A DNA stretch of 35,975 nt, from NCBI GenBank assembly GCA_001858525.1, contig LAPX01000006.1, forward strand, positions 1 through 35,975, in the 5' to 3' direction. Of the stretch, positions 1-34,645 are shown piece after piece. Positions within the stretch are counted from its first letter, which is position 1. Every line of letters starts with the position of its first letter. The position numbers and the translations under genes were made by a program. Source of the DNA: Vampirovibrio chlorellavorus (GTDB lineage: Bacteria; Cyanobacteriota; Vampirovibrionia; Vampirovibrionales; Vampirovibrionaceae). Under the pieces are notes generated by a model, which worked only from the letters and a program-made list of their open reading frames with translations, had not been told where the DNA came from and ran no database searches.

Positions 1-79
1 CACTTGTGCTAATATTTTCCAAAATCTCTACGCCAAGTGGATCTGAAAAAGGGACCCGGTCACAGCTTTTAACAGAACA

Positions 80-736
80 TTGGAAGATCCATTTTTCATA
101 GCCGTAAACTACAACGTCTATGATCTAAAACCCTATCAGTGGATCATAAAACGAAGCATTGATTTTACCGGGAGCGCCATAGGTCTATTAATGCTTCTGC
201 CATTTTTAATCGTTATTGCCACGATAATCAGCATCGAATCCGAAGGTCCTGTAATCTATAAACAAAAACGTATTGGCCTGAATGGAAAAGAATTTGAAAT
301 GTACAAATTTAGAAGCATGCGTGCAGATGCTGAAAAACTTTTACATGAGTTATTGGAGAAAAACGAAATTGGCAATGGCATGTTTAAAATGCTGAACGAT
401 CCTAGAATCACCCGAGTCGGAAAATGGTTACGCAAGTTCAGCATTGACGAACTTCCACAACTATTTAATGTTTTAAAAGGTGACATGAGCCTCGTCGGTC
501 CCCGTCCGCCGATTGAATCAGAACTACAGGATTACAAACAGTGGCATTATTTCCGATTCGCCACATTGCCTGGCCTCACAGGGTTATGGCAAGTCAGCGG
601 ACGATCCAGCATCAAGGAATTTGATGCTGTGGTAGAAATGGATTACGAGTACATACGTAATTGGAGCTTGTGGCTAGATTTTAAATTGCTCTTGAAAACA
701 GTACCTGTGGTGCTATTCGCAAAAAATACTGCCTAG
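80..736 (+). CDS. Bacterial sugar transferase (polyprenyl-phosphate glycosyl-1-phosphate transferase), possibly 5'-incomplete
   Basis: This enzyme family moves a sugar-1-phosphate from a nucleotide sugar to undecaprenyl phosphate at the inner membrane and so starts repeat-unit assembly. The sequence shows the family core: a KRSIDF start to a hydrophobic segment (about residues 24-50), then KQKRIG, YKFRSM, the DELPQL motif, SLVGPRPP and PGLTGLWQVSGRS. At 218 residues it is the short, one-membrane-helix form rather than the long WcaJ/WbaP form. The start is uncertain. The frame opens after a stop at 44-46, and the only early start is a TTG at 80 with no clear ribosome binding site. The leader resembles the linker of longer homologs, so a frameshift or a lost N-terminus is possible. 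It is convergent with the minus-strand polysaccharide operon and its stop overlaps that operon's last gene by 4 bases. Family assignment is firm; the donor sugar is unknown. Confidence 0.85.
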   Translation: MEDPFFIAVNYNVYDLKPYQWIIKRSIDFTGSAIGLLMLLPFLIVIATIISIESEGPVIYKQKRIGLNGKEFEMYKFRSMRADAEKLLHELLEKNEIGNGMFKMLNDPRITRVGKWLRKFSIDELPQLFNVLKGDMSLVGPRPPIESELQDYKQWHYFRFATLPGLTGLWQVSGRSSIKEFDAVVEMDYEYIRNWSLWLDFKLLLKTVPVVLFAKNTA

Positions 737-1995
737 AAATCAGGGTGAACACAGCTGGCTAACGCATAAAACATCCAGGCCTGACCCCAACGAATATAGG
801 GAATTTTATTCCAGTCCCGAGATCGTTTTTGATAATAAAAATACCCTCGCTCGTCTTGAAACTTTGCGACCAGCTCAATCAATGTTTTTTCGATAAGGAG
901 TCTTCGAGATGCTTTACCGGGATATGCTCTTTGACGGAGTAAGTTCAAAATGATAATAGACTCAGCCAAAACATGCACATCAATGGGATAAAGATGATCT
1001 CTATAATACTTAGGCAAACCCACGTCATCAAACAGATGATCCAAATAATACTCAATCACTTGATTGAGTACCATCGTATAGTCATCAATCTGTAAACAAT
1101 CTTGAATGCTATATAGACTTTCGATATTAAAGCCCGTATGAAAATTATCCACCCAGCGATGAAAAGGAAGCGTCCCATATGGCCAGGAGCCGTCTGGGTT
1201 GATATCAGCGGTAGAAAACCGAATCGATTTCAATATCTTTTCACGAATTACTTGCTGTCTACTGCCAGAAAAAAAGCATAGTGTCTCTGCCAAATAAGAT
1301 GCGGCAAGCAAGTTGGCGTTATGCACTTCCGTATCCTCAGCTGGAATATAACGAAAACAAAGAAAATAATCATCTTCGTGGCAAATCATTTCACTCAGGA
1401 TAAAATCAGAAACGCCCAAAGCCAGATCCAGCGCCTGCGGATCATGAAAACACTTGTAATAGGCCAATAAAGCACGTCCCACAAAAACAGAGGTCACCAA
1501 ATTCGGCGTGCCCTCAGGCACATAAAACGCCCGAGCCTGCCAATCAAAATTATAGCCCCATGCGTTGCCAACAGTTCTGCTTAAAACCTGATGCCGTAAA
1601 CGCTGGAATAGAATATAAGCCTCATTGCTATAGATCTCATCCCCAAAGGTCTGGAACAAGTGAATTAGCCCCATTAAGAAAAGAGCCCCTCCCTTGGGGT
1701 TAAATCCTCTGGAAACACCCAAAAGTGGTCGCAAGTTGACAGATGACTTCTTACAAAATTGAATTAACGCAAGCCGAAAGTAACGACTTCTATAAAACAC
1801 GGTTGATTTCAAAAACTTGCTATTCAAACCATCAAACAAATCATAACCTTCATAATTAGTGGCTTGAACGTACTTCAAGACAGACTTCACCCTGGGCAAA
1901 AGATTAGCTCTCGATAACGGGGAAAAGGTAATATCAAAAGACGTCAACTGCTCAGCCGATATTCCCATCGGATCATTCAAATTCAGTGAACTCAC
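733..1995 (-). CDS. Unknown protein of a polysaccharide locus, probably an alpha/alpha-barrel carbohydrate-active protein
   Basis: I do not recognise a named gene. The 420-residue product has no signal peptide or membrane segment. It is rich in aromatic residues and amphipathic helices, with features such as WGYNFDWQ, HNANLLAASYLAETL, DGSWPYG, FHTGFNIESL and YIRWGQAWMFYAL. Such regularly spaced Trp/Tyr-Gly helices are seen in (alpha/alpha)6-barrel proteins, for example glucuronyl hydrolases and C5-epimerase-like domains. Proteins of this kind often sit in exopolysaccharide clusters next to CapK-like enzymes. The GTG start at 1995 is preferred because AGAGG lies 9 bases upstream; an ATG nine codons later has no such site. 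The start overlaps the upstream glycosyltransferase gene by 23 bases, so translation is probably coupled. It is the last gene of the operon. A role in uronate modification or trimming of the glycan is inference only. Confidence 0.6.
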   Translation of the reverse strand: MSSLNLNDPMGISAEQLTSFDITFSPLSRANLLPRVKSVLKYVQATNYEGYDLFDGLNSKFLKSTVFYRSRYFRLALIQFCKKSSVNLRPLLGVSRGFNPKGGALFLMGLIHLFQTFGDEIYSNEAYILFQRLRHQVLSRTVGNAWGYNFDWQARAFYVPEGTPNLVTSVFVGRALLAYYKCFHDPQALDLALGVSDFILSEMICHEDDYFLCFRYIPAEDTEVHNANLLAASYLAETLCFFSGSRQQVIREKILKSIRFSTADINPDGSWPYGTLPFHRWVDNFHTGFNIESLYSIQDCLQIDDYTMVLNQVIEYYLDHLFDDVGLPKYYRDHLYPIDVHVLAESIIILNLLRQRAYPGKASRRLLIEKTLIELVAKFQDERGYFYYQKRSRDWNKIPYIRWGQAWMFYALASCVHPDF

Positions 1996-3079
1996 GATAC
2001 AACGCCTCTAATTTCTCAATAATAATGGGAAGATCAAAACGAGACTTGGCAAGCTCATAGCCTGATTGGCCCATTTGGGTCCGAATAGCAGACGATGAAC
2101 TCAATTGCTCTATACGCTCAGCCAGAACTTTGCATTGACCAGGCTGAATCAAAAAGCCATTAACACCCTCTTCCACGGCTTCTGATATCCCGCCAACGGC
2201 AGTCGATAAAACAGGCAACCCATAGGCCAATGCCTCCAACACCGAAATAGGTAACCCTTCGTTATAAGAGGGCAGTAATAAAACATCTGCCTGTCGAAAA
2301 ACCGCATCCTTGGTTTCACCGTCGATCCAGCCACACAATTTCACTTGACCTTGCAATTGGTGCTTCCGAATCAAAGCCTCCACAGGCGCCAGATCACCAT
2401 CGCCATATAGCTGGATTTCAAAATTTCGTGACTGGATGTACTGCAACGACTCCAGTATGTCGTATACCCCTTTTCGTTTTCCAATACGTCCCATAAACAA
2501 GAACTTTACGGGAGAGTTTAGATCGGAAGACTGGCTAGCAGAAAATTTGGTTCGAACAATAGTTGGATTGTAAATAACCCGAATGTCAGAATCAGGGGAA
2601 ATATTCTTCAAGTCATCCTTCCATTGACTAGATAATGCCAAGATACAGTCACATTGGCTCAAGATGGTGCGAATAAAGCGTTTAACAAGCCATCCTCCTT
2701 TTTCATAAAAAAGAATAAATTCCGCGCCATGAATGTGTAGAATGATAGATTTCCCAAACAATGCAGCGAAAACTGCCGCAATCGATTTACGTATAAAACT
2801 AAAGTAAGAGGCCGTATGAATATGAACCACACGAATAGATGGTGTGGTCATCAACACTCTGAGGTATCGACCCAGAAATGAGAGAAAAAACACACTTTTC
2901 TGCCACCGATTGCCATCCTGATACGAGGCAAGATATAGAACCTTCTGAAACAATCCTCCCTTATCATACATTCGGATCACAGAAGAAATACCCCCTCTGG
3001 AGTCAGGATCTGTGCCAATCATCAAGACTTCAGGACCACCCAGGCAGGAATTTTCAGGAATGGATGAATAACTTTTCAT
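1973..3079 (-). CDS. GT4-family glycosyltransferase
   Basis: This is a GT-B fold retaining glycosyltransferase that adds a sugar from a nucleotide donor to the growing lipid-linked repeat unit on the cytoplasmic face. At 368 residues the length is normal for the family. The N-terminal half carries a glycine-rich SRGGISSVIR acceptor-side loop and VVHIHTASY. The C-terminal half starts with the usual LFMGRIGKRKGV and ends with LLPSYNEGLPISVLEALAYGLP, including the E-x7-E donor-binding signature, followed by AVGGISEAVEEGVNGFLI. The ATG at 3079 lies next to the stop of the upstream CapK-like gene (no gap), and its own 3' end overlaps the following gene, so it is embedded in the operon. Donor and acceptor sugars cannot be told from sequence. 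Confidence 0.88.
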   Translation of the reverse strand: MKSYSSIPENSCLGGPEVLMIGTDPDSRGGISSVIRMYDKGGLFQKVLYLASYQDGNRWQKSVFFLSFLGRYLRVLMTTPSIRVVHIHTASYFSFIRKSIAAVFAALFGKSIILHIHGAEFILFYEKGGWLVKRFIRTILSQCDCILALSSQWKDDLKNISPDSDIRVIYNPTIVRTKFSASQSSDLNSPVKFLFMGRIGKRKGVYDILESLQYIQSRNFEIQLYGDGDLAPVEALIRKHQLQGQVKLCGWIDGETKDAVFRQADVLLLPSYNEGLPISVLEALAYGLPVLSTAVGGISEAVEEGVNGFLIQPGQCKVLAERIEQLSSSSAIRTQMGQSGYELAKSRFDLPIIIEKLEALYREFTEFE

Positions 3080-4420
3080 TCAATTTAACGATTCCATCTT
3101 ATTGATAATATTAATAAACTTCCCGTTTGGCCCCCGTGGAATGTCATCCACTTCCTGCACAGACACCTTCATAAACGGTGACGTATGCTTCAAAGTGTTT
3201 AAAACCAAACGCTCACGATCGACATCTGTAAACCGCCCATTGGTTAATACTTTCAAGGTCACTTCACCAATTTTTTCCTGATAAAACTGGGCCTCGATAA
3301 CATTGTCCACACCAACTGGAATGTGTGCAGTAATGGCAATGTGATAACCCTCAGGCGTTAACAAATAACCATATGAACGCCCTAATATACGCTCAACAGA
3401 CCTGAAATAGGAGCCACATTCACAAGCCGTGGCTGGGGTATTCTGGGAGTTTGAGTAAATATAGTCACAAGTACGATAACGCAGCAAAGGCATGACATAA
3501 TTACAAAGTTGAGTTCCCACCAATTCATAACAGTTCTGCTCTGCCACAGGCAAAAATTCGACAATCGAATAATCTTCCTGTATGTGATAACGACGACAGA
3601 TACTGTTTTCCCCAATCGCCACAACACGCTCCGCTTGACCGTACCAGTCATATATCGGGCACTGAAAAACACTTTCTATGTATGAACGAACATCCGTCTC
3701 CAAAGACTCGGAAGAAGTGAAAATGGCATCGAATTGGTAGTCTACTTGATGATACTTAAAAAACTTGGCCAACACATGCCCCATGGACGGCCCACAGTAT
3801 AAAATTTTAGGCTGAAACTCCAGTATTTTATCAATATAATGCACACTATTATCCCGAGAAAGGTGGTAACTAGACATCTGAAGTTCAAGATTCGCCGAAT
3901 TATAATTCCAGAACGGCGGATGTGTTTGAGCTGCAGGCACAATAATCTCACCACGAAGTGAAATTCGCCGCTTACCGGAATCCCCGGCTTTCTGCCAATG
4001 ACGCCATACCACAGCGTGTTCAAAATTAATGCCATCATAATCGCGAATAAATCGACCCGGCATCCCGGTACTACCACTAGTCGTTCCCATACTACATAAA
4101 AAGTTGTGATGTTTTTTGGAAATAAGCTTATCGTAATTTTCCTGAACCGTCTTTTTGTCTAATAGCGGAAGTTTTTGTAGATCTGCACCCGTTTGAATAT
4201 CATTGGGTGATAATTTTAAAGCCCGAAATAAGTCCTGATAATATGGGATATTCCGATAGCAATGATACACCATTTTCTGAAGCGCTTGATCCTGATAGAT
4301 CTGTAACTCCGTTGGCGTATAAAACTGAGTTCGTTTCAATATTTTCAGATATTTTTGGAAACGAGGCCCACGACGATAAAATCGCTTCAGCCAGCATTGA
4401 ACCTTAAATGGGCCTTTCAT
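3080..4420 (-). CDS. CapK-like adenylate-forming enzyme (phenylacetate-CoA ligase family), copy 2
   Basis: CapK/PaaK-like proteins belong to the ANL superfamily of adenylate-forming enzymes. Members in polysaccharide loci are thought to activate a carboxylic acid, perhaps for acyl decoration of the glycan, but their substrates are mostly unknown. The 446-residue sequence keeps the Ser/Thr/Gly phosphate loop (GTTSGSTGMPG), the TSSESLE segment, the aromatic YDWYGQAERV motif at the adenylate site, the RYRTCDY motif, and a C-terminal GPNGKF with the candidate catalytic lysine. A CEC-type cysteine cluster follows RYRT. It is clearly a paralog of the gene immediately upstream, with matching motifs and nearly equal length. 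The ATG directly follows the upstream TAG, and GGAGG lies 11 bases before it. Family confidence is high; the reaction is inferred. Confidence 0.82.
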   Translation of the reverse strand: MKGPFKVQCWLKRFYRRGPRFQKYLKILKRTQFYTPTELQIYQDQALQKMVYHCYRNIPYYQDLFRALKLSPNDIQTGADLQKLPLLDKKTVQENYDKLISKKHHNFLCSMGTTSGSTGMPGRFIRDYDGINFEHAVVWRHWQKAGDSGKRRISLRGEIIVPAAQTHPPFWNYNSANLELQMSSYHLSRDNSVHYIDKILEFQPKILYCGPSMGHVLAKFFKYHQVDYQFDAIFTSSESLETDVRSYIESVFQCPIYDWYGQAERVVAIGENSICRRYHIQEDYSIVEFLPVAEQNCYELVGTQLCNYVMPLLRYRTCDYIYSNSQNTPATACECGSYFRSVERILGRSYGYLLTPEGYHIAITAHIPVGVDNVIEAQFYQEKIGEVTLKVLTNGRFTDVDRERLVLNTLKHTSPFMKVSVQEVDDIPRGPNGKFINIINKMESLN

Positions 4421-5737
4421 CTAGTTCATCGCCTCCAGCTTGTTGATAATGCTAATAAACTTGCCGTTTGGACCTCTGGGAATACCATCAACCTCTTTAA
4501 CAATCACGCGCATTTTTGGAGAAGTGTGAGCCAACGTATTTTGTACCAAGCGGCGGCGATCCTGCTCTGAAAAATGCCCGTTGCTGAGTACATTAATAAT
4601 CAATTCCCCATGTTTTTCCTGATAGAACTGCGTTTCCAAAAGATTATCAACCCCACGAGGAATATGGTTCATAATGGAAATTCGATATCCTTCCGGGGTC
4701 AAAATATAGCCATAGTTCCGACCAAGAATTTTATCAACCGTTCGGAAAGCCGATCCACAAGAACAGCCCCCTGAAAAGGAGGTCACGTAATCATTGGTTC
4801 GATATCGCAATAGTGGCATAACAAAGTTATACAAATGTGTGCCCACTAATTCATCCCCATAAGGAGTATTCATTAATTCAACAATAGAATAATCCTCCTG
4901 AATATGGTATTGACCGTCCCGGCACTGTGCAATAGCAGCAACGCGCTCAGCCTGACCATACCAATCATAAATCCGTGACCCAAAAGTATCCTCAATAAAA
5001 CTACGAATATCGGGTTCTAAAGACTCCGAGGATGTAAAAATGGAATCAAAACAATACTGCTGGGCTTCATGTCGAAAAAATTTGGCCAACAAATATGCCG
5101 TTGAAGGATAACAATATAAAACTTGAGGTTTAAATTTCAGAAGTGCATCGATATAAAGTGCTCCATTGCCCAACGACAAGTGGTACCCGGACATTAATAA
5201 TTCCCGATTAGCAGAATTATACTTCCAAAAAGGAGGTTCGGTTTGCTGGGCAGGAACAACCATTTCGCCCCGCAGCGTCACCCGTTTTTTTCCAAAATCA
5301 CCCGCCTGGCGCCAATGACGCCACACCGAGGCATTTTCAAAATTAATGGACCCATAGTCACGAAAAAAAGTAGCCGGTGTGCCAGTGCTGCCGCTGGTGC
5401 TTCCCAGTCGGCAAAGTATATTTTTTCGCTTCCAGGCCACTAGTTTGTCATAATTATCAGCCACCGTGTTCTTGTCTATGACAGGAATTTTTTGCAAGTC
5501 ATCTACCGTTTGGAAAGACTGAGGTGTCAACCTCAATGTCCGAAACAAATCCCGATAATAGGGAATATTCAGATAACAATGATGGATGATTTTCTGGAGT
5601 TGCAGATTTTGCAAGCGGCATAGCCGTTCTGGGTTATAATTTGCGGAACGTTCCAAATGCCTCAAGTACTGAGAAAACAAAGGCCCCTGTCGATACACTT
5701 TCTTCATCCAACCCTGAAACTCAAAAAGAGGAGCCAT
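4421..5737 (-). CDS. CapK-like adenylate-forming enzyme (phenylacetate-CoA ligase family), copy 1
   Basis: This 438-residue ANL-superfamily protein is the first of a tandem pair. Visible motifs are the phosphate loop STSGSTGTP (residues 113-121), FTSSESLEPD, YDWYGQAERV (257-266), RYRTNDY (311-317), a GCSCGS cysteine cluster and GPNGKF near the end (422-427). I chose the ATG at 5737, not a GTG nine codons upstream. A strong AGGAGGT site sits 7 bases or so before this ATG, and its N-terminus (MAPLFEFQGW) aligns with that of the next copy (MKGPFKVQCW). The start lies inside the 3' end of the upstream glycosyltransferase gene (17-base overlap). The likely role is activation of an acyl group used in glycan modification; this is inferred from gene context, and the substrate is unknown. 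Confidence 0.84.
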   Translation of the reverse strand: MAPLFEFQGWMKKVYRQGPLFSQYLRHLERSANYNPERLCRLQNLQLQKIIHHCYLNIPYYRDLFRTLRLTPQSFQTVDDLQKIPVIDKNTVADNYDKLVAWKRKNILCRLGSTSGSTGTPATFFRDYGSINFENASVWRHWRQAGDFGKKRVTLRGEMVVPAQQTEPPFWKYNSANRELLMSGYHLSLGNGALYIDALLKFKPQVLYCYPSTAYLLAKFFRHEAQQYCFDSIFTSSESLEPDIRSFIEDTFGSRIYDWYGQAERVAAIAQCRDGQYHIQEDYSIVELMNTPYGDELVGTHLYNFVMPLLRYRTNDYVTSFSGGCSCGSAFRTVDKILGRNYGYILTPEGYRISIMNHIPRGVDNLLETQFYQEKHGELIINVLSNGHFSEQDRRRLVQNTLAHTSPKMRVIVKEVDGIPRGPNGKFISIINKLEAMN

Positions 5738-6911
5738 GAGTGACCTCCTGCAATGCGCAAACACTAAGAAAATTCTTTTTAAACAGCATTTGATGATAAA
5801 GCTGAAAATACTGTTGTCGCATAACGCTTATATCAAACTGTTTTACAAAATTCAAAGCTTTAGCGGCAAAACCATCCGCAATTTCAGGATAGGCGTACAC
5901 CTTGCAAATGGCCTGAACCAAAGAGTCCACACTATCGCTTTCAAACAACAAACCATTTTCCTCATGACACACCAACTCCGCAGGGCCATCGATATTACTC
6001 ACAATAACTGGAACACCGGCAGCCATGGATTCCAGTACAACCAGGCCCAAGCCCTCGAACCGAGAGGGTAAAACAAACAAATCAGCCTCTCTCAAAACTG
6101 AAGCGACGTTGGTTTTATTCACCACAAACGCAATCTCATCTTGTAGATTTAATTCGGCCACTAAATCTTTGAGCGCTTGATATGAATGCTCGCTATAGGG
6201 ATGAACACTACCCATGAATGTTCCATGGACAGCCAATCCCGCTTGCTTACACTGGGCAATGGCCCGAATTAAAAGATCTTGCCCCTTCTTGGGATAGTAA
6301 AAACGACCGATTTGTACAATACGCAAAGGCCTGTGATGATATGCAATGGCTTGCAGCCGTTCGACCAATGTGTGTCGTTTCAAATTCTGATAAGCATCAA
6401 TATCGATTCCATTATAGATTTGACGAACAGGCACAAATCCTTCTCGCTCACAAAGCCGTTCAACCGATTTGGAAACAGCAATGTAGTGATCTATAAAAAC
6501 ACGTTGCAGAAATTTGTGAAAAACACTCAACCAAACTGGGGCCGTATCATGAACAGTGAATATCAACTTCAGTGAGGGTTTGCATAATTTGCAAAGCATC
6601 GCCCACCATTTACTCCCCGTATTGTGGCTATGAACGATGTCAATGTCATGAACCGAGATGATTTTAAGAAGTGCTTGCAGGTACTTCCAATGCACATGCC
6701 CTTCCGGCCGTTCCAGAAAATAAGCATCACAATTCATAAGTTTTAAACGCATTTTTAATTCAGAATTAACAGCCTGATTCATGACCACCACTGTAAACTC
6801 TACCGAAGCGTCACTTTGTTTTTCATCCAGCAAATCCAGCAGTAACTTTTCAGCCCCACCCACTTCCAAGGATGAAATCAACTGCATCACCTGAATCGAT
6901 CGCTTCATCAT
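5721..6911 (-). CDS. GT4-family glycosyltransferase
   Basis: This retaining GT-B glycosyltransferase most likely adds one sugar of the repeat unit at the inner membrane. The 396-residue protein begins with the classic ISSLEVGGAEKLLLDLL acceptor-side loop, continues with DIVHSHNTGSKWW and the HYIAVSKSV segment, and has IVQIGRFYYPKKGQDLLI at the start of the donor-binding domain. The C-terminal signature is LFVLPSRFEGLGLVVLESMAAGVPVI, including the E-x7-E pair. The start codon is only one base after the flippase stop (TAG at 6913-6915). GGGG precedes the first ATG; a second ATG one codon later is equally possible. It overlaps the start of the first CapK-like gene by 17 bases, showing tight operon packing. 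Sugar specificity is unknown. Confidence 0.9.
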   Translation of the reverse strand: MMKRSIQVMQLISSLEVGGAEKLLLDLLDEKQSDASVEFTVVVMNQAVNSELKMRLKLMNCDAYFLERPEGHVHWKYLQALLKIISVHDIDIVHSHNTGSKWWAMLCKLCKPSLKLIFTVHDTAPVWLSVFHKFLQRVFIDHYIAVSKSVERLCEREGFVPVRQIYNGIDIDAYQNLKRHTLVERLQAIAYHHRPLRIVQIGRFYYPKKGQDLLIRAIAQCKQAGLAVHGTFMGSVHPYSEHSYQALKDLVAELNLQDEIAFVVNKTNVASVLREADLFVLPSRFEGLGLVVLESMAAGVPVIVSNIDGPAELVCHEENGLLFESDSVDSLVQAICKVYAYPEIADGFAAKALNFVKQFDISVMRQQYFQLYHQMLFKKNFLSVCALQEVTHGSSF

Positions 6912-6912
6912 A

Positions 6913-8223
6913 CTAAGTCCCCACTACCCATTGAGGCTCTGTCTTTTCAGACACAGACTTTTGATACCGTAAGTAATGAACCCGAACCTGCAAGAGGTAC
7001 AGTAAGCGGCCCACAAAAGTACCCACCGCCGCGCCGTAAAGCCCCCAAAGGGGAATCATAATGATATTCAGTAAAAGAATAATAGCCAATTGCCAATAGC
7101 GAGAGGTGCATAATACATCAGGCTTGCCCAAAGAATATAAAGTTTGCTCAAAAGGCATACTCATCAATCCGGCGGCATACGCCATCACCAGAATCTGAAA
7201 AACCCCAATGGAGGCTTGATACTGTTTTCCAAACAAAATAGGAATCACAAACGGACTCATCGGAATCAAGGTCAAAGCCGCCAAAACCAGAATGAGTGTG
7301 TACTGAATAATTTTTTCAGAAACCTGAAACACCTGCGTTTCACTTAAACCAGACAGTGTTGGTAATAGAACTTTCCCCAACACCAAAGGTAAAAACGCAA
7401 TGATTGCACACAGCTGAACCGCTGCATTATAGAGCCCCAGCTGCGCATAACTCACCCACAACCCAAGCATCAAAAAATCGAGACGACTCAGCAGATTATT
7501 GGCAACTGAGTAAACCAGCATCCACTTTTGGTAGCCTGTAATCTCAGTCATCAAAGATGTGGGTAAATGAGACTTCCAAAAAGCACTCAAAAATTGCACA
7601 TACTGTTTTGAAAACAGCAAAGAAAATAGAAGAGGAATCCAGTAAACATAGAGTACCCAATGCAACTGCAACTGATTGTAAAAAATGAGTATTCCGATAA
7701 ACAAAAAGCAAATCGAAAATCGGACAATATTTAAAATCGCCCGCAACTGAAACCACTGATTGGCCTGGCAATAAGTATCGTTGACAAAAAATAGGGATTC
7801 GCCCAATAAACCCACAATCAAAAACGGCAAAAACACGATTAGTTCAGATTTGTTCAATATCTGAAAAAGCCAACCCTGAGTCAAAATCAAGAATAAAATA
7901 ACCACACCCAAAATCCCCAGTTTAAGGGAGAGATAAAGCCCGAAAATCGGATACTTCTCAGACTTGTCTCTGGCCGAAAAACGAACTGCTGTATTCTCCA
8001 TGCCAAAGTCAAATAGTGCACTCAACAAGGTGACTGCCACAAAAATAAAGGAATACTTTCCATAATCAGCAGGTCCTAAAGTTCGGGTGAGCGCTAGGAT
8101 CATGAAAAAATTCAACCCCTTGGTAACAACGGCCTCAAAAAAAGTGAGACCCAAGTTACGAACCAACAGGCTGGGCTTTTTAGCCGAATCAAACACGGCG
8201 CTTGCTTGGAACATCTTGGACAT
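6913..8223 (-). CDS. Wzx-like polysaccharide flippase (MOP superfamily)
   Basis: The product is a 436-residue, highly hydrophobic protein with about 12 predicted membrane helices. Its N-terminus, LTRTLGPADYGKYSF, is the hallmark of RfbX/Wzx-type flippases, which move the undecaprenyl-linked repeat unit across the inner membrane. The rest is membrane segments joined by short charged loops, for example RLDFLMLGLWVSYAQLGLYNAA in the middle, again typical of the family. The ATG at 8223 lies inside the 3' end of the preceding polymerase gene (35-base overlap), so translation is likely coupled; no strong ribosome binding site is visible. An in-frame ATG three codons later is an alternative. Position between polymerase and glycosyltransferases supports a Wzx/Wzy-dependent assembly route. 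Confidence 0.88.
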   Translation of the reverse strand: MSKMFQASAVFDSAKKPSLLVRNLGLTFFEAVVTKGLNFFMILALTRTLGPADYGKYSFIFVAVTLLSALFDFGMENTAVRFSARDKSEKYPIFGLYLSLKLGILGVVILFLILTQGWLFQILNKSELIVFLPFLIVGLLGESLFFVNDTYCQANQWFQLRAILNIVRFSICFLFIGILIFYNQLQLHWVLYVYWIPLLFSLLFSKQYVQFLSAFWKSHLPTSLMTEITGYQKWMLVYSVANNLLSRLDFLMLGLWVSYAQLGLYNAAVQLCAIIAFLPLVLGKVLLPTLSGLSETQVFQVSEKIIQYTLILVLAALTLIPMSPFVIPILFGKQYQASIGVFQILVMAYAAGLMSMPFEQTLYSLGKPDVLCTSRYWQLAIILLLNIIMIPLWGLYGAAVGTFVGRLLYLLQVRVHYLRYQKSVSEKTEPQWVVGT

Positions 8224-9580
8224 ATAACAAACTCAGCAAAACAAAAATGAATACTTTGTAATGAGGCGAGGCAAAGGTGTGATCAAAAATGCTGACAAAA
8301 AACACACCCACCATGGCCGAACTGATCAAAATGGCGTAAGTCTTATGCCCTCCCCGAGAATGCCGGTACTGACTCCAGGAATTCAGCCACAGAAACAACA
8401 GGAAACTAAACAGAATGAATGCACCAATCATCCCGGATTCCATGACCGTTAACAGATAAAAATTATGGGCAAACCAGTTGTGATACTGAGACAAAGGAAC
8501 AAACGCCGGAATATAAGGCCAGGCGGCTAGAGAGTAGGAATTCAGTCCAGAGCCAAACCAGAACGCCTTGCTACTGGCGGTAATGGCTGCCAACGGCACT
8601 TGCCAGATAATCAAGCGTTCGTTGTAACTTACCGTTTCGACATACGAAGAGTTAGACAAAGAGGAAACCAGAGGAAAAATAACCAGCAAGAGAAAAGCAC
8701 CCACCATGTACAGTGAACGTTTCCAGTTAGGCTGACTGACGGCCAGATAGAACAGCAGCCCCGCAATCAAGCCCAGCAAGGTTCCTCTGGAGTAAGTGGT
8801 AATAATACCCAAGAGAATAATCCCTGCCCAAAGCAACGCTATTTTTCTGCGTCGAATATGTCGAAAAAAGAGGGGCACAAAAATCAGAAGACTAATCACC
8901 AAAAAATTACCCAGGGTGTTGAAGTGCCAGGTGGTTCCCTTACCGTGCCAAACCATGTTGGACCCCAGCCCAAGATATCCCAGATACCCCCGATTGGATC
9001 GAAAATCCGAACCAATGCCAGTCACCGACTGAAAAAGGCCTATTAGCGCCTGAAACAAGGCCGTGGCCAAAATCACCTTGAGCACATCAGCTCGAGTAAT
9101 CTGCCGAGTACGCAACAGGTAAATACCGATATAAAACATGGCAAAGGCTTCCACAATTTTGAAAAAGCCCAGCATGCCGGTATGACTGATGGAAAATAAA
9201 CCGCATCCTAAAAATAAAAGGGTCAGTAAAACAATCCATCCGTCCAGCGATGTTCGAAGGGACACCTTGGGAGCAGTCAGCAAGCCATTCAAAAGGCAAC
9301 TTCCCAAGGCAAAGAGAATGACCACCTCATTGATGGAAAAGCTAATGGGTAACACCCGAATCCGCTCGGTAAAAGGAATGGTGAAAATGGCCAGAAAAAA
9401 TGTCTTGTCCGGATTTAAAGCCAGATAGATCAAACCCGCTACACCCAATAATGCCAAGGCGATCCAGTATACGGGAATAATCAGACTCAAGGCCCCGATC
9501 AGGGCGGAGATGAATACGAAAAGCCACATCCATCTCCGTGCCTGTAGGGAATCTGTCATTGTGATCAAGCGACTAGTCAT
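8189..9580 (-). CDS. Wzy-like O-antigen polymerase/ligase family membrane protein
   Basis: This 463-residue protein has about 10-12 membrane segments and the features of the O-antigen ligase/polymerase (Wzy_C) family: TYSRGTLLGLIAGL in the middle, then a large periplasmic loop containing the glycine-rich GSGLNSY and YHNWFAHNFYLLTVMESGMIGAF. The histidine-rich HNW/HNFYL stretch is the usual signature of this group. It probably polymerises flipped repeat units on the periplasmic side. A ligase role cannot be excluded by sequence, but the Wzx, Wzz and Wza partners around it favour a polymerase. The ATG at 9580 overlaps the upstream gene's stop by 8 bases, implying coupled translation; a second ATG at residue 8 is an alternative start. 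Confidence 0.85.
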   Translation of the reverse strand: MTSRLITMTDSLQARRWMWLFVFISALIGALSLIIPVYWIALALLGVAGLIYLALNPDKTFFLAIFTIPFTERIRVLPISFSINEVVILFALGSCLLNGLLTAPKVSLRTSLDGWIVLLTLLFLGCGLFSISHTGMLGFFKIVEAFAMFYIGIYLLRTRQITRADVLKVILATALFQALIGLFQSVTGIGSDFRSNRGYLGYLGLGSNMVWHGKGTTWHFNTLGNFLVISLLIFVPLFFRHIRRRKIALLWAGIILLGIITTYSRGTLLGLIAGLLFYLAVSQPNWKRSLYMVGAFLLLVIFPLVSSLSNSSYVETVSYNERLIIWQVPLAAITASSKAFWFGSGLNSYSLAAWPYIPAFVPLSQYHNWFAHNFYLLTVMESGMIGAFILFSFLLFLWLNSWSQYRHSRGGHKTYAILISSAMVGVFFVSIFDHTFASPHYKVFIFVLLSLLYVQDVPSKRRV

Positions 9581-12539
9581 GAACCACTGCCAACTGCCGA
9601 GAAACGGCCTTGCCTGCCAACATCACACCGAACTCCGCATTGGTCAGCAGATAGCGTTTCCACATGCGACGGGGCTCCTGAATCAGCCGATAAAACCATT
9701 CCAGGCCATATTGCTGCATCCATTCAGGGGCACGTTTGACCTTCCCGGCCACCACGTCGAAGCTCCCCCCCACCCCCATCACAAAGGGAATATTGAGTTC
9801 ATTTTTGTACTGATTAATAAACGTTTCTTTTTTCGGACTACTGATAGCCACCAGTAAAACATCGGGCTGAGCCTGACGAATTTTACGAGCTACCTGCGTT
9901 TCTTCTTCTTTGCTGAAATATCCATTGCGATAACCGCATATATTGAGCTTTGGATATTGCTGCTGATAGTGAGCCACCACATCCTGCACCACCGACTGAG
10001 CGGCCCCCAGGAAATAGACGCGATATCCTTTTTGATTGGCCACCGCAAGCAGGTTTTCCATCAAATCAATACCGGTCACTCGCTCGGGAATTTGAACACC
10101 CAGCAGTTTGGCACCCAGAACCACACCCGCCCCATCGGCGCTAATCAACTCACAGCCATTCACAATTTCACGCAGTTTTTTATCGTGACGCATGGCCACC
10201 AGTTTAGCCACATTCACCACCACGTGCTGCATGGGCTGTCGCTGATCAATACTGTGCACAATGCGATCCACGGTTTCAGACATGGTCAGGGCATCCACAT
10301 AGGCCCCCATGACTTCGACCCGCCTCGCGTTGGTGCGAGGGGAACCGCCTACAGTCACGGTCAGCCCGCCGCCTCCTCTGGGATTCTGCCAATCCGCATA
10401 AATGGATTGCTCATATTCCAGCTGTCGGTTTTCCTCCCGCACGATGGAGCCCAGCAAAGGCACATCAGCAGCACGGACCTTATCGGTAATCGATTTAAGC
10501 GCTTTGAATGTAGCCTCCCGATCCACGAATAGAACCACACCATCGGAAATATGGGCGATGGCCATAAATTCCGGTGCGATGGCTCCAGCCGGGGTATCAA
10601 TAAAGACCCAGTCAAATTCCCCTTTGAGTACGTTTAAAATATGACGGAAACCTCTACTAGCGAAATAATCGTAGGCGTTTTGCAAGGGACGGCGATTCAG
10701 GGCCAGATAAACCCCGTTGACATCCTGCCCCAAGGCCCGCATCACTTCATCCGGGTATACCGGCTGACCGCTACGTAATTTTAAATCGGTGGCCAGAATC
10801 AAATCACTGAGGTCATGAAAATCAGTGGGCTCCTCCAGAAATCGAGCCAACCCGGAGGGGCGGCAACCCGCATCAATAAAAGCCACCGTTTGCCCCAGTC
10901 GACTCATACACTGGGCCAGGTGATAAGCCCCACCCGCTTGCGGTTTCTCCAGTGCCGAAGAGGTAAAGGCAATGGCGTTGGCCCCGGTTTGACTGGTATG
11001 AATCCGCAAGTTTCCAATAATATGTTTGCAAGCCATATCATTCAAGGCGAACATGGATTGCTCCTGTCCACCTCGCTGCTCCGGCGGCTCTTCCAGCCAG
11101 GGAATAACCCCCAGGATTTTACCCTGAGTAACAGCGGACACCGCATCCGCCCCCTCACAACGATCCTCTACATTCGTTTTGAAGACGGAAAGCCCAGCGC
11201 CCACGCCCAAGCCCATCAGCATGGATAGCACAATCAGATGGGTACCCGTGGGAAACGACTGCTTCAGGGGAACACTGGGAGTATCCACCACAAAGACGTT
11301 ACTCGGTGTTTCCGCCTCTTTGATCTGGGTTTCAATCTGCATTTTGCGCAGCTCATCGTAAGCCAGAGCCAAGGCTTGTTCCTCTTCTTTCAAACCGGTT
11401 AACACATAACGGTTTTGAGGAATTTCCCTAAGGGCAGCATCCACTTGCTGAATGGCTGAAACCAGACTGTCCGCTTCAGAGTTCAGCCCAACCGAACGGG
11501 CACTGGAAGCGGCTAAATCCTGTACCAACTGACTGCGCACAGAGTCAAAAATCAAAGGCCCATTCACCGAAGATCTACCCGTCGTCTGCTGAATCTCACG
11601 ACGCACCTGAGTTTCCAAGGCCTGAATTTGCGCCCGGGCGGCCTGCATCGTAGGATTAGTCACGGCCAGCTTGATGCCATCCTTGGCATACTGCTGCTTC
11701 AAGAGAGCCAGATCGGTTCGCATTTTTACCAGATTTTCATTGCCCGAACCCAAGGCCACCGCCCGTAGGGCCTGACCTGGGTTCATGGCCAAGTGACGCT
11801 GCAAGGCAGAGGCATTGCCCATGCTGTTGCGGCGAGCGGCTTGAACCGATGCCAACTGAGCGGTCAACTGTGATTTCAAACGGACCAGCTCCTGGGTCTG
11901 GGCATCAATATCCACAGTCATATTGCCAGCCTGAAACTGCTTAATGCGTTCCCGCACGGCCAGCAAACTTTTAACAATACCTTTTAACTGCTGGTCCACA
12001 TACTCTCTTTTTTGAGTATAAATTTGGCGATTGAAAACCAGGTTGGTTTCATCCAGCTTTCTGAGAGCCGCTTGCAGCATTTCCCGTGCTAACTGAGGGT
12101 TATTCCATTTCAGGGAAACCTGTAGCACATCGGTATTGGGCTCGGTTTTCACCTCGATCAATTCCCAGGTATTGGGTCGTCCATTCAGGGTTTTGCCCCA
12201 CTGAGACTTGAGCTGATGCTGGGCCACAAAGTGAGATAAGTAAGCGGCCATCTCCTTGGACTTTAAAATCTCGGCCTGAGTCATCAACGGATTGCCCGCC
12301 TGGGTCAGCGGACTCAGGTAACCCGGCTGATTCCCGGACTCGGACAAGTAACTGCGGGTGGTGGTGTCTTTAATCCACACCTTGGCTTCCGATTCATAAG
12401 CGGGCTTATAAATGGTCAGTACATAGAGCACTGAAAAGACCGTCATTACCCCAGCGGATGCCCCAATCAACCATCGATCCCGAATCAGGTTCCGGGCAAA
12501 CCGGTTCTGCTGAAATGCCTCGATTTTCATACGTGTCAC
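9573..12539 (-). CDS. Three-part fusion: Wzz co-polymerase, degenerate BY-kinase-like domain, WecG/TagA/CpsF (GT26) glycosyltransferase
   Basis: This single 988-residue frame joins three modules. Residues 1-455 form a Wzz-type chain-length regulator: membrane helix at 22-43, long coiled-coil-prone periplasmic region, PxxP-like VDTPSVPLKQSFPTG and second membrane helix at 433-453. Residues 495-715 resemble a bacterial tyrosine kinase (BY-kinase): Walker A' AFIDAGCRPSG (553-563) and Walker B FDWVFIDTP (642-650) remain. The Walker A stretch (525-541, TSSALEKPQAGGAYHLA) lacks the GK[S/T] core, so ATP binding is doubtful. After a glycine-rich linker (721-735), residues 740-980 are a GT26 transferase: ADGAGVV (801-807, candidate catalytic Asp802), RVTGIDL, SPKKE, GVGGSFDVVAGKVKRAPEW and LEWFYRLIQEP. 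GT26 enzymes transfer ManNAc or ManNAcA to a lipid-linked GlcNAc. The neighbouring WecC-like dehydrogenase fits ManNAcA. The frame is continuous, with no sign of an artefactual join. Confidence 0.9.
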   Translation of the reverse strand: MTRMKIEAFQQNRFARNLIRDRWLIGASAGVMTVFSVLYVLTIYKPAYESEAKVWIKDTTTRSYLSESGNQPGYLSPLTQAGNPLMTQAEILKSKEMAAYLSHFVAQHQLKSQWGKTLNGRPNTWELIEVKTEPNTDVLQVSLKWNNPQLAREMLQAALRKLDETNLVFNRQIYTQKREYVDQQLKGIVKSLLAVRERIKQFQAGNMTVDIDAQTQELVRLKSQLTAQLASVQAARRNSMGNASALQRHLAMNPGQALRAVALGSGNENLVKMRTDLALLKQQYAKDGIKLAVTNPTMQAARAQIQALETQVRREIQQTTGRSSVNGPLIFDSVRSQLVQDLAASSARSVGLNSEADSLVSAIQQVDAALREIPQNRYVLTGLKEEEQALALAYDELRKMQIETQIKEAETPSNVFVVDTPSVPLKQSFPTGTHLIVLSMLMGLGVGAGLSVFKTNVEDRCEGADAVSAVTQGKILGVIPWLEEPPEQRGGQEQSMFALNDMACKHIIGNLRIHTSQTGANAIAFTSSALEKPQAGGAYHLAQCMSRLGQTVAFIDAGCRPSGLARFLEEPTDFHDLSDLILATDLKLRSGQPVYPDEVMRALGQDVNGVYLALNRRPLQNAYDYFASRGFRHILNVLKGEFDWVFIDTPAGAIAPEFMAIAHISDGVVLFVDREATFKALKSITDKVRAADVPLLGSIVREENRQLEYEQSIYADWQNPRGGGGLTVTVGGSPRTNARRVEVMGAYVDALTMSETVDRIVHSIDQRQPMQHVVVNVAKLVAMRHDKKLREIVNGCELISADGAGVVLGAKLLGVQIPERVTGIDLMENLLAVANQKGYRVYFLGAAQSVVQDVVAHYQQQYPKLNICGYRNGYFSKEEETQVARKIRQAQPDVLLVAISSPKKETFINQYKNELNIPFVMGVGGSFDVVAGKVKRAPEWMQQYGLEWFYRLIQEPRRMWKRYLLTNAEFGVMLAGKAVSRQLAVVHD

Positions 12540-12582: not shown

Positions 12583-13818
12583 TTAACGGGTATTTACATT
12601 CACATTGAAGCGCCTTGGATCAAACAACAGCGCCCAGTTGTTAGCCCCAGCGGCCATGGAGGCAATGGGCATAACGATACGAGTCACGTAATCGAAGGCC
12701 TTGCCCACCCGTGGGGTAATTTTATTGGGCACATACACCACATCGTTGGGGCGCAGGCTCATGTCATCATGCCGTGGATCCACGGTAGTGGTGGTGAGAT
12801 GACCATTTTTATCCACCCGACTGACATACACCTTGGTCGGGGCGTAGGAGGCCTCTGTGGCTAAATAGCCGCCCGCCTGTCCAATGGCCGAATTCAAATT
12901 GGCGGACTGTGCCCCATCCAGCATGTACACACCGGGCTTATTCACATAGCCAACCACTTTCACTGGTATATCCTTCTGGAAAAAAGAGGCCCCCAGCATG
13001 GATTGATAGTGCTTGTCATTCACGGCATACGGGGTGGGCAATGCGGGCACCTCCACCGAGTCTCCTGCCACCAGGAACAAATCCTGCTCGGTATTGCCAT
13101 TCTGCACCAAATCCAGCAGGTTAATTTCAAAGGTCGAACCATCAAAGCGATTGCGCACTTTGACGTGCTCAAAATCAGCGTCGTAACGCAGCCCACCAGC
13201 AGCCACCAGCACATTGGAAAGCAGCGGCAATTTGCGCTCCATCAACACCCCGGGAAACCCCAGATTGTTGACCATCTGAATGCGGGACACATCCGTCACC
13301 ATTTCATAAGCACCCGGTCGTAAAACCCCACCGGTTACATACACCTGAAAAGGCTTGGTGCGTTCCAGTTTAACGGTGACCTTGGGCTGGTTCAGGTAAT
13401 ATTTCAGCCGATCCGAAATTTCTCGCTGCAATTCATCAATGGTCAGCCCGGCCACATCCAGGGAGCCAAAGGGGGCAATGGTAATATTGCCATCCGGCTG
13501 CACCAGCAAATCTTTCTGAGAAAACTCCGGTGAGTCGTATACCGCCACGGTCAGGACATCATTGGGTCCCAACCGATACTTGCGACCGGTAAAGTTGGCC
13601 ACAATTTTGGCGTTGATTTGGGTATTGGAGACCTGTTCAAAAGAAGGCTCCCCGATGGAAATAAATTTACGCTCCGCCGGTGCCGGTGTCACAAGCTGTT
13701 GGCTGTCCTGGCAATAAGCCGTGGAGGAAAAAGCCAGTAAGGATGCCAGTGCCACGGAACCCATTTGTTGGTATGGCTTGGCTCGATCAAAACAATTTTT
13801 AAAGCAATCTTTCAACAT
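12583..13818 (-). CDS. Wza-like polysaccharide export protein
   Basis: The protein is an outer-membrane polysaccharide export family member, which forms the exit channel for the polymer. The 411-residue product has an N-terminal export signal (hydrophobic VALASLLAFSSTAYC, cleavage probably near residue 35; no clear lipobox). A Poly_export domain follows (YRLGPNDVLTVAVYDSPEFS, LVQPDGNITIAPFGSLDVAGLTIDELQREI), then SLBB-type beta-grasp repeats (FQVYVTGGVLRPGAYE; VKVVGYVNKPGVYMLDG) and a terminal LRPNDVVYVPNK. I chose the ATG at 13818: the GTG four codons upstream lies inside the G-rich AGGATGAGGGG stretch that would serve as binding site. It is followed 43 bases later by the Wzz-kinase-GT26 fusion, its expected partner. 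It probably leads the main operon. Confidence 0.88.
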   Translation of the reverse strand: MLKDCFKNCFDRAKPYQQMGSVALASLLAFSSTAYCQDSQQLVTPAPAERKFISIGEPSFEQVSNTQINAKIVANFTGRKYRLGPNDVLTVAVYDSPEFSQKDLLVQPDGNITIAPFGSLDVAGLTIDELQREISDRLKYYLNQPKVTVKLERTKPFQVYVTGGVLRPGAYEMVTDVSRIQMVNNLGFPGVLMERKLPLLSNVLVAAGGLRYDADFEHVKVRNRFDGSTFEINLLDLVQNGNTEQDLFLVAGDSVEVPALPTPYAVNDKHYQSMLGASFFQKDIPVKVVGYVNKPGVYMLDGAQSANLNSAIGQAGGYLATEASYAPTKVYVSRVDKNGHLTTTTVDPRHDDMSLRPNDVVYVPNKITPRVGKAFDYVTRIVMPIASMAAGANNWALLFDPRRFNVNVNTR

Positions 13819-13962
13819 TGGTAAGCCCACCCCTCATCCTATTTGTTGTGTTACGAGAACCCCAACATTAACCGTTTAAATGAAGCTCAACTCAATTACA
13901 CAGACTGCTATTGATTTGCCCCCTGAACGCCCCCCCACACAAGCAAAATCCCTAGCCGAATG

Positions 13963-14107: not shown

Positions 14108-15427
14108 CTAATGCACGGCCAAAAACTGGGCCTCCAGGCTGGCCAGCGGATCTCTGAGCTTTAGCGATGCCCCATCCCGACCCAGCAAGCGATACTGAAA
14201 ACCGGCCTCTTCCCAGTCTTTTTGGTTCAAGGCGTTCCGGGTATCAATAATGTTTTGATGGCGAACCAGCGTGCCCACCTGCCGAGGATTAATATAGCGA
14301 AACTCGGCATGATCCACAGCCAGCAGAATACAGTCAGAATCTTTAAAAGCACTCTCCAAACCGCACAGTTCATAATCGGCTTGTTTCACATGCGGATCAT
14401 AAATGGTCAGTTCAATCTGCGGATTCTTTCGAATCATCTCTGCAATCTTTAAGGAAGGGGCTTCCCGCACATCATCCACATCGGCCTTGTAGGTCAGCCC
14501 CAACAAGGTCACTTTGGGATTGGGAATATGCTGAATGGTATCCAGTAGCAGTTGATAGGTGTATTCGGGCATACCGTCATTGATGGTTCGAGCCTGATGA
14601 ATGATGCGGGCAGCCTGCGGAAATTTCTCCACCAAAAACCATGGGTCCACCGAAATACAATGCCCGCCTACGCCCGGCCCCGGTGTGTGCAAATTCACTC
14701 GAGGATGCAGGTTGGCATAGCGGATCACCTCCCAGGCATTGATGTTGAGATTGGGAGCAATGGCCGCCAACTCGTTGGCCAAAGCGATATTCACATCCCG
14801 GAAGGTGTTTTCCATAATTTTCACCATCTCGGCCGTGGTGGCGTCCGTCAGGTGAATTTCCCCTTCCACAAAGCTGGTGTAAATCTGCCGGGCCAGTTCA
14901 GCGGATTGAGCATTAATCCCCCCGATGATTCGGGTATTCTGAATGAGCTCCTTGATAATTTTTCCGGGAAGGACTCGCTCCGGGCAGTGGGCCACAAATA
15001 ACTCTGTCCCAAGCGCCAACCCGGACTCGGCCAGAATGGCGCACAGGAAATCCCGAGTGGTGCCGGGCGGCGAGGTAGACTCCAGAATGACCAGATCCCC
15101 GCATTTTAGCAGGGGCACAATGGATCGGGCCGCCGAACCCACATAGGAGAGATCGGCCTGTTTGGCCTCCGTAATGGGCGTGGGTACTGCCAAAATATAA
15201 ACGTCCGCCCGCTGAGACTGAGTAAAGGCCTTTAAGTTACCGGAATGCACAGCCGCCTGAACCAGCGTTTTCAGGCCGGGTTCCTCAATATGAACCCCAC
15301 CCTGGTTCACGATATCCACCACCCGCTGCACCGGGTCCACTCCATGAACCTGAAACCCGTTGGCCGCCAAAATACTGGCCGTGGGCAAGCCGATATAACC
15401 AAGCCCTAATACTGAAATCTGTTTCAC
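14108..15427 (-). CDS. wecC: UDP-N-acetyl-D-mannosamine dehydrogenase (WecC-like nucleotide-sugar dehydrogenase)
   Basis: This family oxidises UDP-ManNAc (or a close UDP-sugar) twice with NAD+ to the uronic acid, in the cytoplasm. The 439-residue product has the N-terminal Rossmann motif VLGLGYIGLPTA (6-17), ESTSPPGTT (116-124) and AHCPERVLPGK (146-156), the last typical of the WecC branch rather than UDP-glucose dehydrogenase. Lys203 lies in EMVKIMENTFRDVNIA, and the catalytic cysteine, Cys257, in GPGVGGHCISVDPWF. The C-terminal domain has LGLTYKADVDDVREAPS. The start is GTG, with AAGGGG 7 bases upstream. It has its own promoter candidate and is separated from the export operon by 277 bases. 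The GT26 domain encoded just downstream is of the WecG type that uses UDP-ManNAcA, which supports this substrate; other UDP-hexosaminuronates remain possible. Confidence 0.88.
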   Translation of the reverse strand: MKQISVLGLGYIGLPTASILAANGFQVHGVDPVQRVVDIVNQGGVHIEEPGLKTLVQAAVHSGNLKAFTQSQRADVYILAVPTPITEAKQADLSYVGSAARSIVPLLKCGDLVILESTSPPGTTRDFLCAILAESGLALGTELFVAHCPERVLPGKIIKELIQNTRIIGGINAQSAELARQIYTSFVEGEIHLTDATTAEMVKIMENTFRDVNIALANELAAIAPNLNINAWEVIRYANLHPRVNLHTPGPGVGGHCISVDPWFLVEKFPQAARIIHQARTINDGMPEYTYQLLLDTIQHIPNPKVTLLGLTYKADVDDVREAPSLKIAEMIRKNPQIELTIYDPHVKQADYELCGLESAFKDSDCILLAVDHAEFRYINPRQVGTLVRHQNIIDTRNALNQKDWEEAGFQYRLLGRDGASLKLRDPLASLEAQFLAVH

Positions 15428-15691: not shown

Positions 15692-15771
15692 GGAAGGGGT
15701 CCGGGTGGTGAGGACGCCGCCTTGAAAGCGGTTGCCCGCAAGGGTTGCAGGTTCGAATCCTGTCCCTTCCG
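15692..15771 (+). tRNA. tRNA-Ser (anticodon UGA)
   Basis: The 80-base sequence folds as a class II tRNA. The acceptor stem is GGAAGGG (15692-15698) with CCCTTCC (15764-15770) and discriminator G15771, as expected for serine. The D stem is TCC/GGA around GGGTGGTGA. The anticodon stem is GCCGC/GCGGT around the loop CTTGAAA, with anticodon TGA at 15723-15725. The long variable arm has a CCC-GCAA-GGG hairpin, and the T arm is GCAGG-TTCGAAT-CCTGT. CCA is not encoded. Only one base (G) separates acceptor and D stems, so the usual U8 seems missing; the molecule is shorter than most serine tRNAs, mainly through a compact variable arm. It decodes UCA and other UCN codons. Confidence 0.93.
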
Positions 15772-28462: not shown

Positions 28463-28545
28463 CATTGGCGAACCATTTGCCAAGCCATGCAAGTTCTCGT
28501 ATGATAAACCTGTTCGCAAATTCATTGTGGGCACACAATTTATAT

Positions 28546-28646
28546 CATCTATCGGGGTGTTGGCTCATGGGCCGACTGAGATCATCGCCAATTCGATGAA
28601 ACCCGCTTAACCTGATCTGGGTAATGCCAGCGGAGGGAAGTAGAAT
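28546..28646 (+). promoter_or_regulatory. TPP riboswitch (THI element)
   Basis: The conserved TPP-sensing sequence is present: CGGGGTGTTGG (28553-28563), the pyrimidine-binding GACTGAGATCAT (28574-28585) and ACCCGCTTAACCTGATCTGG (28601-28620). TAATGCCAGCGGAGGGAAG (28622-28640) contains the second J-region consensus. The closing helix can form between TCTA (28548-28551) and TAGA (28641-28644). It controls the following thiC-thiO-thiS-thiG-thiDE operon by thiamin pyrophosphate. No strong promoter was identified; TATATC at 28541 is a possible -10. Confidence 0.93.
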
Positions 28647-28670
28647 GTTTCATTTTTATAGCAGGCAGCC

Positions 28671-31791
<3,121 letters not shown>

Positions 31792-31908
31792 CGCCGTGTG
31801 TACTTTTGAATTTAAAACCGCACCCCTTGACGTTCAACAACCCCTATAGCATCCAACACCCCAATAACAACTAACACACCCATAGCATTCAAAAAAGGTA
31901 CAATCACA
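31792..31908 (+). repeat. Short degenerate direct repeat in the thiO-thiS gap
   Basis: The 117-base gap holds two related blocks, ACCCCTATAGCATCCAA and ACACCCATAGCATTCAA, about 38 bases apart, and is strikingly rich in C and A. No promoter or terminator is clear, and the genes on each side belong to one operon. AAAAAAGG precedes thiS. Confidence 0.35.
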
Positions 31909-32112
31909 ATGATGCAACTGTTTGTGAATGGTGAGCCCCAGCAAGTGCCCGCAGCCGCCAGCGTTCAGGATCTCCTGAATCAACTGGGTTATGAACCCAA
32001 ATCCATCGCCGTGGCCGTGGATGGCGATTTCGTACCCAAGCATCAATACCAAACCCTGGCCCTGCGGCCAGCCCAATCCGTAGAAGTGTTGTCGCCCATG
32101 CAAGGGGGTTAA
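31909..32112 (+). CDS. thiS: Sulfur-carrier protein ThiS
   Basis: ThiS is a small ubiquitin-fold carrier whose C-terminal glycine is adenylated and then turned into thiocarboxylate, giving sulfur to the thiazole ring. The 67-residue product starts [14 protein letters not shown], has [23 protein letters not shown] and the required Gly-Gly C-terminus (SPMQGG). Length and order of elements match the family. An AAAGG lies about 7 bases before the ATG. It is followed after 2 bases by thiG. The enzyme that activates it is most likely the MoeB/ThiF-rhodanese protein encoded convergently at the right end. Confidence 0.94.
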
Positions 32113-32114
32113 GC

Positions 32115-34501: not shown

Positions 34502-34521
34502 TTAATAGCATCAGTCGCTTT

Positions 34522-34551: not shown

Positions 34552-34645
34552 GATTGATCCATGCGACACAATCGTTGTCTTTATGCTTCAATATTTATTG
34601 ATTCAATTTTGGATTGATTGTTATTGATTATGGACTCACTTGCCC

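Follow-up and report, generated by a model that had tools for sequence, protein, structure and literature searches.

A co-polymerase with a degenerate kinase-like domain and a GT26 glycosyltransferase domain are encoded in one conserved Vampirovibrio gene

In co-polymerases (PCPs) of the PCP-2a type, such as VpsO and Wzc, the Wzz and GNVR domains and a cytoplasmic BY-kinase fold are found in a single chain. A scaffold role for PCPs has also been proposed for BY pseudokinases, as in the EcpK-EpsV pair of Myxococcus and the HfsB-HfsA pair of Caulobacter, where EcpK and HfsB retain the BY-kinase fold without the catalytic motifs or the Tyr tail (PMC12004946). Among the GT26 glycosyltransferases, TagA has been proposed to use D65 as its catalytic base, with roles given for further residues, and to switch between an inactive dimer and an active membrane-bound monomer (PMC6493773); WecG of Shigella associates with the membrane via a C-terminal helix, and it reportedly showed no interaction with WzyE (PMC12212991). 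WecG catalyzes the committing step of ECA synthesis, in which the lipid carrier becomes sequestered when late steps are blocked and feedback control is said to be absent (PMC11813082).

The window analyzed here, a 35,975-nucleotide stretch of Vampirovibrio chlorellavorus (contig LAPX01000006.1), encodes a protein that resembles VpsO and Wzc in uniting Wzz, GNVR and a BY-kinase fold; however, it is without the Walker A Lys and Ser, has a degenerate Walker A' and no Tyr-rich tail, and carries approximately 250 added residues that constitute a GT26 enzyme. Compared to EcpK and HfsB, its catalytic motifs likewise appear to be lost, as judged by sequence, but those scaffolds are separate proteins without a transferase, whereas the putative Vampirovibrio pseudokinase is linked to its PCP covalently, in cis, and largely retains Walker B. 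No fusion of a PCP with a glycosyltransferase was found in the open-access literature searched. The first-pass annotation of this DNA had known of no described example of the arrangement; as far as searched, this holds for the GT26 fusion, which is new, but not for pseudokinase PCPs, which are already known from EcpK and HfsB.

A conserved reading frame of three modules

The fused gene is located on the minus strand at 9573..12539, and its frame runs from a GTG start at 12539 to a stop codon at 9573-9575, encoding 988 residues without an internal stop; the plus-strand reading of the same interval is full of stops. One continuous 988-residue frame with three modules had been claimed in the first-pass annotation, and the ORF and the Pfam and NCBIfam scans agree with that claim. 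The co-polymerase part comprises residues 1-455 (11175..12539), as defined by Pfam, hydropathy and a profile-profile match to canonical Wzc, and is followed by a degenerate BY-kinase-like domain at residues 456-706 (10422..11174), which was recognized by profile matches to VpsO, CapAB, Etk and Wzc. A junction with the anticipated Gly-rich linker, here bounded at residues 707-738 (10326..10421), replaces the Tyr-rich tail, and the GT26 domain with its C-terminal appendage, delimited by TagA alignment and Foldseek, occupies residues 739-988 (9576..10325). The 3' end of the gene overlaps the start of the Wzy gene by 8 bp (9573..9580, minus strand), and this overlap is identical in all five species.

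Orthologues of the fusion were found in all five Vampirovibrio genomes, including that of the window; the other four are 85, 85, 59 and 59 % identical to the window copy, one of the orthologues is truncated by a contig end, and the relatives show an identical Pfam domain set. The gene order around the fusion is the same in all five genomes, and the assemblies bearing it include contigs of 364 kb and 156 kb. For every part of the protein, dN/dS was approximately 0.06-0.12 (Nei-Gojobori; closer pairs G000-G004, G000-G002 and G004-G002, where G000 is the genome of the window), indicating purifying selection on all three parts. A stop or frameshift was looked for near 10,330-10,400, and none was present; this region is the linker, which is open in all five species. 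Because the junction is open in five assemblies of different species, a frameshift or chimera at this point is, for all practical purposes, ruled out, and nothing was found in favor of the idea that the fusion is a sequencing or assembly chimera or a two-gene read-through, which we regard as hardly credible. These data confirm that the fusion is a genuine, conserved, genus-wide feature. Release of a free GT26 product by an internal restart is not supported by the sequence: around residues 728-753, the Shine-Dalgarno matches of ATG and GTG codons in frame reach at most 5/6 and arise partly from Gly codons, and the match of the conserved ATG at 744 varies among species and is not itself conserved.

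Within the co-polymerase part, Pfam places a Wzz domain at residues 16-98 (3e-7, above cut-off) and GNVR at residues 383-454 (4e-6; 27.3 bits against a cut-off of 27.7, and therefore just below it). Hydropathy indicates two membrane segments, at about 23-44 and 432-454, that flank a helical periplasmic domain, and from these two segments the kinase-like and GT26 parts (residues 456-988) would both be cytoplasmic. Residues 18-715 align with canonical Wzc proteins (profile-profile, hhalign, E 3.5e-37), and the protein has the features by which PCP-2a/Wzc proteins are recognized, i.e., Wzz and GNVR, two membrane helices, and a BY-kinase fold after the second helix. Between distant species, identity is 54-69 % in the flanking domains but only 27-34 % in the linker region; as the sequence of this region is variable, its frame open and its length kept to within 2 residues, it looks as a genuine flexible linker joining functional domains should.

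The kinase-like and GT26 domains

A profile of residues 456-725 matched VpsO (6u1q) best among solved structures (E 4e-7) and also matched the structures of CapAB, Etk and Wzc. The NCBIfam tyrosine-autokinase models TIGR01007, TIGR03018 and EpsG match residues 513-703 weakly, all below cut-off. In Foldseek, the model predicted for this domain matches the kinase domain of Wzc, a supporting result only, given that the model is of low confidence (the AlphaFold models were poor, with pLDDT 48-50 from an alignment of only four sequences). At the Walker A position, residues 525-541 (10917..10967), the window copy reads FTSSALEKPQAGGAYHL in place of TSxxPGEGKS in an alignment with four canonical controls. 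All of these controls have GKS; GK[S/T], including its Lys, is missing from all five orthologues, as had been claimed for the window copy, and each of the five reads FTS(S/T)xLxKPxxGGAYHLAQC with G-G-A-Y-H invariant. Walker A' and Walker B had both been thought to be kept. In the window copy this is true for Walker B (WVFIDTP, residues 644-650, 10590..10610), which reads WVF(I/V)DTP in four orthologues and WVFVNTP, with Asp replaced by Asn, in the fifth (G001); Walker A' is degenerate in the window copy (AFIDAGCR, residues 553-560, 10860..10883), where the second Asp is Gly, and reads FIDAD in the other four orthologues. The Tyr-rich tail is absent as well, since the 42 junction residues contain one or two Tyr and the chain continues into GT26.

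Other PCP proteins of the order are also degenerate at the kinase motifs. In the genome of the window, nothing scored above the TIGR01007 cut-off, so that no intact BY-kinase was detected there by this model; the remaining P-loop matches are MinD-, Mrp- and CpaE-like by sequence, and the other PCPs examined are without GK[S/T] or without a kinase domain. The comparison with controls revealed no intact nucleotide-binding site, and there is good sequence support for the earlier suggestion that the kinase-like domain is a pseudokinase, which would be expected to have no kinase activity.

The domain scan gave a strong, full-length match to GT26 (Glyco_tran_WecG, PF03808, residues 797-963, E=1e-66, 224 bits against a cut-off of 27.4, model positions 2-168 of 168), and strong NCBIfam matches to GT26 begin near residue 736. 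Residues 739-988 align end to end with TagA, and the fusion resembles WecG, TagA and the proteobacterial vps-type GT26 enzymes in having the full domain, the catalytic Asp and the appendage Arg residues: TagA D65, N39 and R83 correspond to D802, N776 and R820, and appendage residues R214, R221 and R224 correspond to R951, R958 and R962, all of which are kept. TagA T37 and Q167 are replaced by V774 and K904, with identical replacements in the proteobacterial relatives, and the donor and acceptor may therefore differ from those of TagA. The predicted GT26 model, built from a shallow alignment, matched TagA 7mpk in Foldseek with a TM-score of 0.86 by target length and an rmsd of 2.8. Altogether, the GT26 domain is likely to be catalytically competent. 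The locus encodes a WecC-type UDP-ManNAc dehydrogenase (14108..15427, minus strand; 441.8 bits, below the equivalog cut-off of 459), and a WecB-type epimerase is encoded in another part of the genome; together they make UDP-ManNAcA a reasonable donor and the GT26 part a probable ManNAcA transferase. The acceptor could be made by the Bac_transf initiating enzyme of the locus or by either of two PF00953 (WecA/MraY-superfamily) proteins encoded in the genome.

Locus content, distribution and origin

Directly upstream of the fusion is an outer-membrane export protein (Poly_export, SLBB; 12583..13830), and downstream are a Wzy-like polymerase (Wzy_C; 8189..9580) and a Wzx-like flippase (6913..8223), all assigned by Pfam and encoded on the minus strand. 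The minus strand also carries two GT4 glycosyltransferases identified by Pfam (5721..6911 and 1973..3079), the latter homologous to a Vibrio gene located two positions ahead of that for GT26, and a 420-residue protein (733..1995) that yielded no Pfam, NCBIfam or PDB match; its homologues (35-36 % identical) are encoded near the stand-alone GT26 gene in clusters of Vibrio, Burkholderia and Pseudoalteromonas, and we guess that it may be a polysaccharide-modifying enzyme. On the plus strand at 80..736 lies the initiating phosphoglycosyltransferase (Bac_transf by Pfam; TIGR03025 above cut-off). We take the locus to be vps-like, a naming that follows the record annotation and the VpsO structure match; the literature searched yielded nothing on VpsK/VpsO.

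Two PaaK/CapK-like adenylate-forming proteins are tandem-duplicated at 3080-5764 (minus strand; 4421..5764, identified by Pfam, and 3080..4420, by homology); a single copy, homologous to the former, is found in the proteobacterial vps-type clusters. A tRNA gene (15692-15771, Rfam) adjoins the polysaccharide locus and could mark an integration site. The GC content is 41-43 % in the glycosyltransferase half of the locus (1-8000) versus 47-59 % over the remainder of the window, a difference suggestive of acquired DNA. Farther along the window, a TPP riboswitch (28543-28656, Rfam, above gathering score) is located upstream of an apparent thiamine gene cluster (28543-35902), which includes a ThiD-ThiE fusion (Phos_pyr_kin and TMP-TENI) at 32903-34501. 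The genome of the window also encodes several further Wzz/GNVR-type co-polymerases, on contigs C3, C14, C24 and C1 (loci L026, L027, L025, L031 and L064), none of which was seen to have a Walker A GK[S/T]. One type of approximately 900 residues (L026:5130-7826), with relatives in G001-G004 and G006, has a long, apparently disordered, Pro/Gln-rich cytoplasmic tail instead of a kinase.

The same domain order was sought in other genomes and, among the matches listed, was found in all five Vampirovibrio genomes and nowhere else: the matches listed for 146 class genomes and for 292 genomes sampled across the phylum included no further PCP-GT26 fusion, and none was found in the plasmids or phages searched, which were the sole sampling of other phyla. 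The fusion is restricted to Vampirovibrio in the phylum as sampled, a statement that does not extend to all bacteria. The contig search with two co-polymerase peptides can recover only close relatives and does not bear on fusions that arose independently. Three kinds of candidate were rejected: the frames of 1038-1047 residues in G177 and G186 are two adjacent genes with stops between them, the 1246-residue frame in G174 is without GT26, and the sole plasmid place covering >80 % has separate genes. Elsewhere in the class, the GT26 proteins among the matches listed are stand-alone proteins of 230-340 residues, in contrast to the fused domain of Vampirovibrio; among approximately 150 class matches listed, fusion aside, all are 233-342 residues long. 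Other GT26 fusions were observed, in the form of a pyruvyl transferase-GT26 protein in one class genome (G305) and GT4-GT26 proteins in two phylum genomes (G157 and G148), at loci L041:2930-4735, L043:1016-2908 and L044:2267-4168. These share the C-terminal placement of GT26 in a larger protein; however, their partners are soluble glycan enzymes, whereas the partner in the fusion is a membrane co-polymerase. PCP and GT26 genes are also found as unfused direct neighbors at L039:2035-5154 and L040:2527-5619 in cyanobacteria and at L025:4150-7289 in the window's own genome, and their genomic link therefore recurs.

The GT26 relatives closest to the fusion are stand-alone genes on plasmids of Vibrio, Burkholderia, Pseudoalteromonas and Paraburkholderia (51-54 % identity), and the four other GT26 proteins in the genome of the window are less close to the fusion than these. 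The clusters of all four genera hold the ingredients of the window's locus with GT26 as a separate gene. In a maximum-likelihood tree, the five fusion GT26 domains are monophyletic (100/98) and group with four proteobacterial plasmid sequences with moderate support (85/92). The Vibrio and Pseudoalteromonas loci carry homologues of the window's WecC, PaaK-like protein, GT4 and 420-residue protein, and the WecC proteins encoded in the proteobacterial clusters share 43-47 % identity with that of the window. The gene for the homologue of the 420-residue protein is immediately followed by the GT26 gene in Vibrio and Burkholderia, and in Pseudoalteromonas one acyltransferase gene lies between them; in Vampirovibrio, this place is empty and the 420-residue protein gene stands tail to tail with the initiating transferase gene. 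The simplest reading is that a vps-like locus was acquired or shared and that GT26 then moved onto the PCP.

A possible role at the polymerization site

With moderate confidence, we favor the interpretation that the fusion is a phosphorylation-independent PCP-2 pseudokinase scaffold of a vps-like Wzx/Wzy exopolysaccharide locus that holds a probable ManNAcA transferase at the polymerization site. The kinase domain would have become a pseudokinase, and a flexible linker and an active GT26 would have taken the place of the C-terminal Tyr tail. PCPs form complexes with Wzy; this one would oligomerize within the inner membrane, either surrounding Wzy or next to it, and touch the outer-membrane exporter, with the pseudokinase ring as a structural base, as proposed for EcpK and HfsB. 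As many as eight GT26 domains would be present per octamer, each also binding the membrane through its own appendage, and the tethered GT26 would transfer ManNAcA or a closely related residue, as an early sugar in the repeat unit, onto the lipid-linked acceptor near the flippase and polymerase. The benefit would lie in a local and stoichiometric supply of the repeat unit, with the lipid carrier committed only where the polymerization machinery is present. Tethering of GT26 to the polymerization complex would follow from the anatomy of the protein; the oligomeric state, the GT26 activity and its donor, and a benefit of tethering are what we infer beyond it. Tethering may add little, because GT26 enzymes bind the membrane unaided.

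The fusion could instead be neutral or act at the level of expression, if a GT26 gene, following horizontal acquisition, came to lie in frame downstream of the PCP gene, leaving the domains independent and fixing only a 1:1 ratio. The unconstrained linker sequence, the unfused neighboring PCP and GT26 genes in G186 and G177, on a Nostoc plasmid and on contig C24 of the same genome, and the fusion of GT26 to other partners (GT4 and pyruvyl transferase) all fit this explanation; yet the fusion has been retained through divergence to 59 % identity, with synonymous sites saturated, and the linker has kept its length to within 2 residues, and we consider a neutral origin possible but rather unlikely. 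More doubtful is a closed-loop machine, in which the oligomeric state of the PCP would control the tethered GT26 so that commitment of the repeat unit is on only while the polymerization complex is assembled; the proposed dimer-monomer switch of TagA makes control of this kind conceivable. It is improbable that the kinase-like domain is alive, with GGAYH serving in place of GKS in an unusual nucleotide site of a nucleotide-regulated co-polymerase. The strict conservation of GGAYH, the Walker B motif kept in four of the five orthologues and the purifying selection on the domain could mean that an unusual nucleotide-binding function remains, but the Walker A Lys and Ser are gone from every orthologue, the window copy is missing the second Walker A' Asp and G001 the Asp of Walker B, no Tyr cluster remains, and degeneration is also seen in further PCPs of the order.

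The type species of Vampirovibrio attaches to Chlorella through a pad (PMC4451040), and one may speculate that the locus contributes to this structure. As a pseudokinase scaffold with a tethered transferase, the fusion would extend the phosphorylation-independent co-polymerases to a genome with several PCPs and without a recognizable intact BY-kinase. The finding touches on how cytoplasmic repeat-unit synthesis is matched to periplasmic polymerization in Wzx/Wzy pathways, and the fusion of a PCP to a possible committing transferase makes such coordination directly testable, since the linker can be cut. If the closed-loop reading were true, chain-length control would feed back directly on precursor synthesis, a form of control that Wzx/Wzy pathways are said to lack.
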